NCBI GenBank assembly: GCA_025062155.1
Contig: JANXAM010000002.1
Span: 62,001-126,000, forward strand
Source: Gloeomargarita sp. SKYB120
Lineage (GTDB): Bacteria > Cyanobacteriota > Cyanobacteriia > Gloeomargaritales > Gloeomargaritaceae
Reading direction: 5' to 3'
Length of the DNA: 64,000 nucleotides
Part shown: in pieces, positions 6,037 to 50,607 of the stretch
Numbering within the stretch: position 1 is the stretch's first letter
Layout of the letters: each line of letters begins with the position of its first letter
The notes under the pieces: generated by a model
What the model saw: the letters and a program-made list of their open reading frames with translations, nothing else
Databases searched by the model: none
What the model was told of the DNA's origin: nothing
Made by a program: the position numbers and the translations under genes

Positions 6037-6061
6037 CTGGAAGCTTGGGGTACAGGGTAGG

Positions 6062-6498
6062 CAACTGTTGAACGCTTTATACACTCTCATAGCCAGAAAT
6101 GAACATCCGTTCTAGGCAGCTGGACAGACAATTGTGGCTTTGGCCATCATGGTATTGTGCCCAGGTGAGAAGCCAGCCTGCCAAGTTCTGCTTGGCACAG
6201 TCTCCACGGCACCTTCCCCTACCCGTGAGGAATCGGGGCAAGCATGTGTGGAGGTTGTGGCTGCTTCTTACCCAGGTATTAGCGGCAGTTGTACTGCAGT
6301 CACTGTGTCGGGACTGTCTCTAGCGACCGCCGGTTAGGGATGGTCGGCCACCTACCACCCCGAGTGCGTGGTCTGAGTGCAACAGTGACTTGCCGGCGAA
6401 ACTCCGGCACGCTCCGCTCCCGCTGGCGGCGGGGGAAGTTGTTGGGAGAGCCGTTCGCCCAGCAGCCTGTGGAGAAATGTCCATGGTTTTAGGAACGG
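6062..6498 (+). ncRNA. Candidate structured RNA, copy A (paralogue of 37432-37874)
   Basis: This 437-bp gene-free stretch is clearly homologous to 37432-37874. Both copies start at CAACTGTTGAAC and run to GGAACGG, and by eye most positions match. No reading frame is kept between them, but pairing is kept. GTGGCTGC (6257-6264) pairs with GCAGTCAC (6296-6303), while copy B has GCAACTGC with GCAGTTGC, so three pairs changed on both sides. CCCC/GGGG (6216-6219, 6235-6238) corresponds to TTTC/GAAA in copy B. GCCAAG/CTTGGC (6180-6196) is kept with a different loop. Identity is unknown: a stand-alone ncRNA, or a non-autonomous mobile element carrying a guide-type RNA. Strand is inferred from the terminator at its 3' end. 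Confidence 0.72.
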
Positions 6499-6519
6499 TA
6501 CAGCCCCGTTCTTGTTTTT
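6493..6519 (+). terminator. Rho-independent terminator closing RNA copy A
   Basis: GAACGG (6493-6498) pairs perfectly with CCGTTC (6506-6511) across a 7-nt loop and is followed by TTGTTTTT. The T-run is only on the plus strand, so it ends transcription coming from RNA copy A (or from priA). The left arm belongs to the sequence shared with copy B, while the right arm does not occur there. It finishes one base before the stop codon of the convergent methyltransferase. Confidence 0.75.
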
Positions 6520-37161: not shown

Positions 37162-37431
37162 ATGCGTACCGATTTAGAGTTTCGCAACCCAGCGTTATTG
37201 GGGCCGGTGGTGTTTCGGCCTGGGTTTAACAACTTCGAGCAGATTACGGCCACCCAAGCCTGGTCGCTATTTTTCACCGCCAGTCAGGAGGACAATATCT
37301 TCGGCTACAACCCCCAGATTGGCTGGTTCCTAAACGGGGTGCTGTTGGCAACCGTGTTGTTCGGGGCGTTCTGGACGCAATTATTCAAAAACTCCTACCT
37401 GGTGTGGCAACTGCTCCAGCAGTGGGGTTAA
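37162..37431 (+). CDS. Small membrane protein of unknown family
   Basis: 89 residues, not recognised with confidence. An aromatic, amphipathic first half (FRPGFNNFEQITATQAWSLFF) is followed by one strong membrane helix (IGWFLNGVLLATVLFGAFW) and a short tail ending QLLQQWG. The NG at the start of the helix faintly recalls one-helix light-harvesting-like (Hlip) proteins, but the R-x-A-M-I-G chlorophyll motif is missing. A strong promoter and ribosome site suggest high expression. RNA copy B begins one base after its stop. Confidence 0.7.
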   Translation: MRTDLEFRNPALLGPVVFRPGFNNFEQITATQAWSLFFTASQEDNIFGYNPQIGWFLNGVLLATVLFGAFWTQLFKNSYLVWQLLQQWG

Positions 37432-37874
37432 CAACTGTTGAACTCCTTATGCACTTTTGTAGCCGGAGATAAACATCTGTCATGAGGGGCTGGACAAACA
37501 ACAAGGGCTTTGGTTATGACGATAGCGTGCCCAGGTGAGAAGCCAGCCCGCCAAGCTTTCGTCTCCTTGGCACAATCGCCACGGCACCATCTTTCTACCT
37601 GCAAGGAATCGAAAGAAGCATGGGTGGAGGTTGCAACTGCGCCTTACCCAGGCACGAGCGGCGGTTGTACCGCAGTTGCGGTGTCGGGACTGTCTCTCGC
37701 GACTGCCGGTTCGGGATGGCCGACCACCTGACCGCCCAAGAGCGCGGTTTGCGTGCAACCGTGACTGGTCGGTGAGACGCCGGCACGCGCCGCTCCCGTC
37801 GGCGGCGGGAGAAGTTGTTGGGAATACCGTTTGCCCAGCAGCCTGTGGAGAATTGTCCATGGTTTTAGGAACGG
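37432..37874 (+). ncRNA. Candidate structured RNA, copy B (paralogue of 6062-6498)
   Basis: 443 bp, homologous end to end with copy A. It begins with CAACTGTTGAAC directly after the stop of the 89-residue gene and ends GGAACGG at the stop codon of the convergent Nif11-type gene. Helices: GCCAAG/CTTGGC (37550-37555, 37566-37571) with a 10-nt loop instead of 5; CTTTC/GAAAG (37591-37595, 37611-37615); GCAACTGC/GCAGTTGC (37633-37640, 37672-37679); and TGTTGGG/CCCAGCA late in the unit, shared with copy A. The terminator's right arm and T-run seen after copy A are absent here. Function unknown. Confidence 0.7.
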
Positions 37875-38231
37875 TTAACGGGGCACCAGCAGGCGGAATA
37901 AACGCACCAGCAGGGGATGCGGATTGGCGGCGGCAAACACTAGGCCAGTTACCCGACCGTCCACCTCTTCCGTCCACAGGGTCATGGTCTGTTCTGTGCG
38001 GCACTCTTGCAGGAGTTCGGCGATGGTCATCCGGGAGCGGTCAAGCGGGGCTTCCGCCGTTGTGAGGGCCGCCTGCACTTCTGCCAATGTCACCTGAAGA
38101 CCCGCTTCTGTCGCTAGTTCCACGATGACTTGGGCTAGGGCGTCTGGGTCGTTTGCCGCTTGCAGCCGCTCTTGACGGGCGGGGTCCTGCATTACCTGTT
38201 CAAGGAAAGCTTGCAGTTCAGCTGGAGTCAT
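37875..38231 (-). CDS. Nif11 domain protein
   Basis: 118 residues. The first 65 match the Nif11 domain (LQAFLEQVMQDPARQERLQA, then AQVIVELATEAGLQVTLAEV). The C-terminal half is not recognised and has no double-glycine leader cleavage site, so it is unlikely to be a modified-peptide precursor of the nitrile-hydratase/Nif11 leader class. Its start overlaps the stop of the upstream 49-codon gene (ATGA), and both lie downstream of hrcA on the same strand. Confidence 0.72.
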   Translation of the reverse strand: MTPAELQAFLEQVMQDPARQERLQAANDPDALAQVIVELATEAGLQVTLAEVQAALTTAEAPLDRSRMTIAELLQECRTEQTMTLWTEEVDGRVTGLVFAAANPHPLLVRLFRLLVPR

Positions 38232-50171: not shown

Positions 50172-50210
50172 CACTACCGATAGCTGGGAAGTCCCTTAAT
50201 TTATGGGAAA

Positions 50211-50607
50211 TGGAGCCGAGCGGAATCGAACCGCTGTCCGCATCGGGTAATGACGTCCTACTCCTTCACAGGCTTAGGTATCTTAACCCAGATACCAGGA
50301 GCCGATTTTGTCCCAAACCGGCAAGGGGTTCACGGTTGAGTCTTAGCTAACAGGCAACCGTGCAAATCCTGTTAGGGCAACCGTTAGGGGGGTACGCTCA
50401 TGGCTTAACGGTGTCACCATGAACGCCTCGAAGTCGGACTAGTCGCTTGACTAGGGACTCTTAGGCAGCCACAACGGCCGCTTTACGAGCAAAAGGAACA
50501 ATGTTGTTCGCACTTACTGGCTTGAGCCTGGATTTACGAGCGGTGCTCACGCTCGGCCTGCATCATAGGATGCGCCTTCGCCGACACGTCGAAGCCATTA
50601 CGGCCCC
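50211..50607 (-). ncRNA. ssrA: Transfer-messenger RNA (tmRNA)
   Basis: About 397 nt on the minus strand. The 5' end GGGGCCGTAATGGCTTCGAC and the 3' end with GGTTCGATTCCGCTCGGCTCCA form the tRNA-like acceptor and T arm; CCA is encoded. The tag frame, resuming at GCG, encodes ANNIVPFARKAAVVAA then TAA, the cyanobacterial type ending in the AA signal for proteases. tmRNA rescues ribosomes stalled on broken messages. It is the one-piece form. It is divergent from the FHA-PrsW gene. Confidence 0.97.

Follow-up and report, generated by a model that had tools for sequence, protein, structure and literature searches.

The window analysed here, a stretch of 64,000 nucleotides from the genome of Gloeomargarita sp. 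SKYB120, contains two related elements (A and B) that are almost certainly non-autonomous transposons carrying the scaffold of a TnpB-type guide RNA. This scaffold descends from the end of a tnpB gene, with tnpB itself lost. Such an identity had been among the candidates raised in the preliminary description of the sequence, and it is carried by the occurrence of the same RNA at the 3' end of tnpB genes, by a pseudoknot that joins a loop of the RNA to the right end of the element, and by the location of the RNA at the right end of IS607-like elements. The explanation as a whole, in which A and B are IS607-like mini-transposons of which the guide-RNA scaffold has been preserved and is used in trans, is probably correct.

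Elements A and B and the family to which they belong

The exact ends of the elements (Table 1) were set by aligning all copies in the genome including their flanks, and outside these ends the flanking DNA differs and is unrelated from copy to copy. The limits described previously (6062-6498 and 37432-37874) had the same right ends, while the exact left ends are at 6058 and 37428. As had been noted, the two elements are paralogous along their full length and are without a common open reading frame; their identity amounts to 79%. The left end of the family comes after a target GG, usually GGG, and the right end reads ...TTTTAGGAACGG; the target GG is located at 6056-6057 for A and at 37426-37427 for B, and the right-end GG of A at 6497-6498. 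Left ends like that of A, which is presumed to be the transposase-binding end, also start the tnpB-bearing copies as well as relatives with a serine-recombinase-like open reading frame. A promoter scan of copy A gave one weak match. Besides the elements, the window encodes a Nif11-domain protein beside copy B (37875-38231, minus strand) and a tmRNA (50208-50607, minus strand; tag peptide ANNIVPFARKAAVVAA).

Table 1. Features of elements A and B, in positions of the window.
Feature	Position	Strand	Position in copy B	Remark
Copy A, IS607-like and non-autonomous, tnpA and tnpB absent	6058-6498	+		441 nt; alignment of copies with flanks
Copy B, second non-autonomous element, same family as A	37428-37874	+		447 nt; empty site in five congeneric genomes
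Left-end region of copy A, begins TAGGCAACTGTTGAAC	6058-6140	+		Comparison of left ends
Hairpin GCCAAG/CTTGGC, 5' side of RNA	6180-6185 with 6191-6196 (span 6180-6196)	+	37550-37571	
P1, outer helix	6199-6207 with 6248-6256	+	37574-37582 with 37624-37632	
P2 hairpin	6213-6219 with 6235-6242	+	37588-37595 with 37611-37618	Near-invariant core UACC-YG-RAGGAAUC
P3 hairpin	6285-6289 with 6293-6297	+	37661-37665 with 37669-37673	
Long-range helix, copies of this genome	6298-6305 with 6383-6390	+	37674-37681 with 37759-37766	
P5, last stem ahead of right end	6438-6446 with 6458-6466	+	37814-37822 with 37834-37842	
P5 apical loop CCGUUC, pseudoknot strand 1	6451-6456	+	37827-37832	
GAACGG, pseudoknot strand 2 and transposon terminus	6493-6498	+	37869-37874	
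Predicted guide segment, right flank of A	6499-6518	+	37875-37894	Position; analogy with IS607 TnpB reRNA (PMC10711439)

Copy B was inserted cleanly at GG, its flanks when joined aligning unbroken over at least 620 nt in five congeneric genomes. In copy L011, joining of the flanks at GG restores an Amidase_3 open reading frame across the junction. The junctions, the empty sites of B, and the Amidase_3 frame together show insertion at a GG dinucleotide without target duplication. The left end of B starts with TTAAC and its right flank is also TTAAC (37422-37432 and 37869-37879), the open reading frame upstream of B ends at the same TAA stop whether the element is present or absent, and copy L013 has TTAG at both ends; the likeness of end and flank in B and L013 may be accidental, or may reflect a preference for targets that resemble the left end.

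Searching the whole genome yielded 16 matches, comprising 13 clear copies and fragments. Four of the clear copies each form the 3' end of an intact tnpB gene, the open reading frame of which (559-569 aa) runs through the RNA nearly to the right end; an overlap with the end of tnpB is common among the guide RNAs of TnpB. The other nine copies (A, B, and seven others) are without tnpB, and the tail frame that remains in them is broken by stops in most cases. Homologues with a protein frame, which the preliminary description had regarded as an argument against a structured RNA, thus count against it in a formal sense only, since the copies in the window keep the RNA with the frame broken. The tnpB-less copies form one clade (support 100/99), in which eight of the nine could be placed, L012 having been left out of the tree because of a deletion. 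Internal deletions take away part of the RNA in L012, L018, L020, and L021. The RNA of copy A is 76-80% identical to the RNAs of the tnpB copies. Since some copies are situated at contig ends (C27, C20, and C47), the count of copies may be an underestimate. One of these, a fifth tnpB copy in a decayed state (G000:C27:1-951), is cut off by the contig edge, and canonical guided-TnpB genes of another family are also present in the genome (G000:C8:27258-28283 and G000:C12:62717-63307, both minus strand; above the NF040570 cut-off).

A scan of 84,980 species genomes detected 35 loci, in Verrucomicrobia, several proteobacterial groups, Thiotrichaceae, a Woesearchaeote, and others. The elements of these relatives mostly end in AGGAACGG or AGGAGCGG, and most relatives carry the RNA at the 3' end of tnpB. 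LP2A had nine copies in the scan, and all three extra LP2A copies that were checked for tnpB loss retain a (decayed) tnpB. No member of the family was detected in six congeneric genomes, and it was found in this genome only in a DNA search of 58 related genomes as well as in a search of 386 genomes of the phylum with the RNA model, in which nine candidates per genome were scored and weak copies may be missed; a search of viral contigs gave no relative. With no finds in these congeners and in the other genomes of the phylum that were searched, the family is patchy, and it was probably acquired horizontally.

Loss of tnpB is also seen in two other lineages. In a proteobacterium, a 430-nt element (L085:3948-4377) consists of the left end, a tnpB remnant from the RuvC-III helix on, an intact RNA, and the right end, and a Thiotrichaceae genome has an RNA-only copy (L119:1510-1769) of which P5 reads GTTGGT...ATCAAC, compared to GTTAGGC...GCCAAC in relatives. 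Both genomes also have tnpB-bearing copies, and their tnpB-less copies arose separately from those of SKYB120.

Structure of the RNA and selection on it

Five helices, comprising 34 pairs, were evaluated in 30 sequences from several phyla; 96.0% of the cells are paired, and double changes occur at 22 of the 34 pairs. Sliding the partners by 1-3 columns left 40-49% of the cells paired, and none of 500 shuffles matched the observed pairing or covariation. Since relatedness can mimic covariation, a tree-based null was used, in which sites evolved independently along the tree, in simulations that retained the composition of each column and its number of changes. The five helices and the pseudoknot together are 96.5% paired, compared to 83.4% in this null (maximum 90.0%), and contain 153 double-changed cells, compared to 20.6 (maximum 53). 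Pairing and double changes thus lie well above both the shuffles and the tree null. When sequences were folded singly, their stability exceeded that of shuffled versions only to a moderate degree (z -2.7 and -2.0).

Among the individual helices, P1 has 98.5% of its cells paired with double changes at 4 pairs, P2 94.5% with double changes at 4 pairs, P3 99.1% with double changes at 3 pairs, and P5 98.1% with double changes at all 7 counted pairs (30 sequences in each case). P2 follows the pattern CUUNNNN-CUACC-YG-RAGGAAUC-NNNNAAG, in which the four middle pairs vary freely. In the coding copies these middle pairs correspond to two variable codons within an otherwise conserved peptide, and it therefore appears that the RNA dictates which amino acids occur together at these codons. 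An insertion of approximately 28 nt lengthens the P2 loop in the Thiomargarita copies L073:5434-5764 and L075:1252-1582, with the P2 arms still complementary. Several paired substitutions between A and B had been described at the outset. The change from CCCC/GGGG to TTTC/GAAA belongs to P2 and that from AGT-TGT-ACT to GGT-TGT-ACC to P3, both of which hold up, as does the GCCAAG/CTTGGC stem. The proposed GTGGCTGC/GCAGTCAC helix is present in A and B, but in an evaluation of 13 copies only 82.7% of its cells are paired, and six copies fail to form three of the eight pairs. A partner that is better conserved, CAGTGACT, is available to the same strand. The GTGGCTGC/GCAGTCAC pairing is therefore mistaken or represents an alternative, and an alternative fold is possible in view of three double changes, in single copies, that agree with it. 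In the long-range helix, the strand AGTCACTG pairs with the downstream CAGTGACT (6383-6390), and 99% is paired.

The pseudoknot between the P5 loop (CCGUUC or CUGUUC) and GAACGG has all six pairs in 28 of the 30 sequences. A coordinated change from U-A to C-G was detected in six sequences, in which a U-to-C change in the loop accompanies an A-to-G change in the right end (AGGAGCGG), and the same pair is held as U-G in two further sequences. The same kind of pseudoknot is required by the TnpB reRNA of ISXfa1 (PMC10711439). The right end is at once the transposon terminus and part of the guide-RNA core, which offers a reason for its conservation across phyla. In L065:5407-5800, the last stem is separated from the right end by an insert of approximately 90 nt, itself bounded by the inverted repeats AGTACCCGTGCA...TGCACGGGTACT, which is possibly a nested insertion.

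The nine tnpB-less copies contain 23 double-changed cells, compared to 2.2 in simulations on the tree (maximum 9, 500 simulations), a test that makes no use of reconstructed ancestral states. The paired share within this clade (96.6%) falls inside the null (mean 93.2, maximum 97.8), and consequently the evidence resides in the double changes and not in overall pairing. These changes make it very probable that the RNA has been under selection after the loss of tnpB. Alternatively, A and B could be dead relics, i.e., deletion derivatives of tnpB elements in which the structure stems from selection in tnpB-bearing ancestors. This would be in agreement with the finding of no transposase in the genome, with the internal deletions that cut into the RNA of some copies, and with the similar rates at which paired and unpaired columns change within the clade of tnpB-less copies (0.53 and 0.50 per column, respectively). 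The relic reading is weakened by the post-loss compensatory pairs by which members of one clade differ, while the right end and the pseudoknot are intact in all copies of this genome that were tested, and the same RNA was kept in two other lineages on losing tnpB. Relics are therefore considered unlikely, and continued selection on the RNA is the preferred reading.

The associated TnpB and the link to IS607

The TnpB reading frames match TIGR01766 above its cut-off (8.7e-9) and NF040570 well below its cut-off; Pfam gave weak coiled-coil matches only, and a sequence search of the PDB with this TnpB gave nothing useful. An AlphaFold2 model from 18 relatives (mean pLDDT 81, pTM 0.61) matched Cas12f, Cas12m, Cas12k, Fanzor2, ISFba1 TnpB, and TnpB in Foldseek, with modest TM-scores (best 0.49, for Cas12k), and this model points to a Cas12/TnpB-like, RuvC-like fold of the protein. 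Among the four tnpB copies dN/dS amounts to 0.16-0.20 in the core, indicating strong constraint, and to 0.48-1.04 in the tail that overlaps the RNA, where constraint is much weaker. Distant TnpB relatives in genomes of Nostoc and Leptolyngbya (L081, L087) share KHVWSFW, but the RNA model had no match in the Nostoc genome.

In the RuvC site D306 and E366 (L007 numbering) do not vary, every aligned relative has a histidine (H436) as the third residue, and the TnpB alignment contains no conserved CxxC pair of a C-terminal zinc ribbon. The protein therefore departs from the combination of D-E-D triad and zinc ribbon that marks a TnpB nuclease, and it is filed as TnpB-related rather than as a canonical TnpB nuclease. 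These same deviations, a RuvC-III without the usual aspartate and the lack of a zinc ribbon, make DNA cleavage uncertain, and the chances of target cleavage rather than mere binding are judged to be even. Cas12m and some exapted TnpBs work as RNA-guided DNA binders. By the same token, the TnpB of this family may no longer cut, in which case TnpB and its RNAs would be RNA-guided DNA binders (silencers) to which the mini-elements supply guides. The histidine in every relative, the presence of Cas12k and Cas12m among the structural matches, and the properties of Cas12m2, which has a non-canonical RuvC triad and binds without cleavage of dsDNA (PMC10442227), favour such a role, but the first two catalytic residues are invariant, and the third metal ligand of the RuvC of D. 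radiodurans is also a histidine, which is needed for cleavage (PMC9228767). Moreover, the genes are still part of multicopy transposons, which favours a role in transposon maintenance, and a function as binder alone seems rather unlikely.

The Verrucomicrobia LP2A relatives have a left end in which GG is followed by TTGCCAACAGTTGACT, then an open reading frame resembling a serine recombinase, recognised by eye from the sequence, and then tnpB, which is the layout of IS607. The tnpB copies of the SKYB120 genome have a similar left end and the apparent first codons of the recombinase gene, of which the rest is deleted. A serine recombinase or a transposase of the right kind was sought in this genome and not found, and the elements may therefore be immobile now. 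In 30 of the 31 relatives scored, as in the copies of this genome aligned with their flanks, the right end is followed by a pyrimidine. This recalls IS607 elements, in which the right-flanking nucleotide is fixed and, in the case of ISXfa1, serves as scaffold (PMC10711439). It is very improbable that the interior folds serve transposition, by a serine recombinase acting on structured ends or RNA, instead of TnpB guidance: the left and right ends are conserved together with the interior, but IS607 transposition uses double-stranded DNA at short motifs (PMC10711439), P1-P3 are 200-300 nt away from the right end, and the structure is kept in tnpB-bearing elements and has the pseudoknot of a guide RNA.

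Proposed mechanism and comparison with known systems

Two other identities suggested for the RNA in the preliminary description, an IscB-type omega RNA (HEARO) and a known cyanobacterial RNA motif, were abandoned: no Rfam family matches, and the associated gene is tnpB. Searches with Rfam 15 gave three sub-threshold, chance-like matches for copy A (E up to 10), nothing at gathering level but tRNAs for nine family loci, and one sub-threshold match for an LP2A copy. The specific candidates were rejected, HEARO/IscB omegaRNA because its Rfam model was unmatched and the associated gene is tnpB rather than that of IscB, and the RAGATH-18 reRNA because its Rfam model was unmatched. The reading of the RNA as one of these or any other described family shares with the data a general resemblance, that of a structured RNA at a transposon end, but with no match above threshold in any of these searches it can practically be discounted.

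In the mechanism proposed for the TnpB-type guide RNA, A and B consist of a left end and a guide-RNA scaffold (omegaRNA/reRNA) of approximately 300 nt that reaches the right end, and this scaffold folds into at least five stems, closed by the CCGUUC x GAACGG pseudoknot. The RNA would be transcribed through the right end into host DNA, such that the first bases of the right flank may act as guide, by analogy with IS607 TnpB reRNA (PMC10711439). It could then be loaded in trans on the TnpB from the four intact copies in the genome. Use of the RNA of A and B in trans by TnpB is somewhat favoured, although the sequence differences between the RNAs of tnpB-less and tnpB copies imply that recognition in trans is not assured. 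The complex would recognise the empty site through the guide and, preceding it, a short motif with GG or GGG at its end, and in this way the element may be kept, or copied back with the filled copy as the source of repair. The role usually ascribed to TnpB guide RNAs is to hold the transposon in place after excision. More tentatively, with a chance that we put slightly below even, A and B may represent 'guide-only' transposons that have shed both protein genes and persist via trans use by the TnpB of related elements, with selection repairing their helices; such transposons would have arisen at least three times (in this genome, the proteobacterium, and the Thiotrichaceae), and the nuclease involved would have an Asp-Glu-His RuvC site.

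With nine tnpB-less beside four tnpB copies, a single genome provides a natural case in which elements without a nuclease gene of their own may share this benefit, and empty sites are available for comparison with filled copies. The RNA has no Rfam model and is distributed over several bacterial phyla, with one further occurrence in an archaeal genome, and a model would therefore annotate a whole set of unrecognised TnpB elements. Moreover, the D-E-H RuvC site offers a natural experiment on the third residue required by TnpB-type nucleases.

The principle of TnpB with an omegaRNA is already known. New are a class of RNA unmatched in Rfam, a subgroup of TnpB in which the RuvC site is Asp-Glu-His, and guide-RNA-only elements with evidence of continued selection; a search of the open literature (subscription papers being mostly outside it) yielded no report of tnpB-less guide-RNA transposons. 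Standalone IscB omegaRNAs, i.e., HEARO RNAs without a nearby open reading frame, are likewise separated from their nuclease gene, but these belong to the IscB/Cas9 side and are a different RNA.

Compared by description, the IS607 TnpB reRNA of ISXfa1 is also located at the right end of an IS607-like element, beside tnpB in complete copies, ends in a pseudoknot with the last stem-loop, and has a guide presumed to derive from the right flank (PMC10711439). The ISXfa1 reRNA measures approximately 150 nt (PMC10711439), whereas the RNA described here measures approximately 300 nt, is also found on tnpB-less elements, and is associated with a TnpB of approximately 500-560 aa with an Asp-Glu-His RuvC triad. 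ISFba1 is likewise an IS607 element with a TnpB-associated structured RNA near its right end, but its RAGATH-18-derived reRNA is independent of coding sequence and its TnpB has 387 aa and a D-E-D site (PMC11061315), whereas the RNA of this family overlaps tnpB. The cyanobacterial pro-Fanzor IS607 TnpBs likewise have an altered RuvC site and occur in cyanobacteria, but their site is marked by a DPG motif and by a glutamate (Ealt) that has moved (PMC10711439), whereas the proteins described here have GVDIN in RuvC-I, the canonical glutamate, and a change in RuvC-III. Finally, Cas12m2, a member of a group among the structural matches, resembles these proteins in its compact Cas12/TnpB fold and in a non-canonical RuvC triad that includes a histidine (PMC10442227). 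In Cas12m2 this histidine is the first residue (His-Asp-Asp) and the RNA comes from a CRISPR array (PMC10442227), whereas in the present family it is the third residue and the RNA is found at a transposon end.
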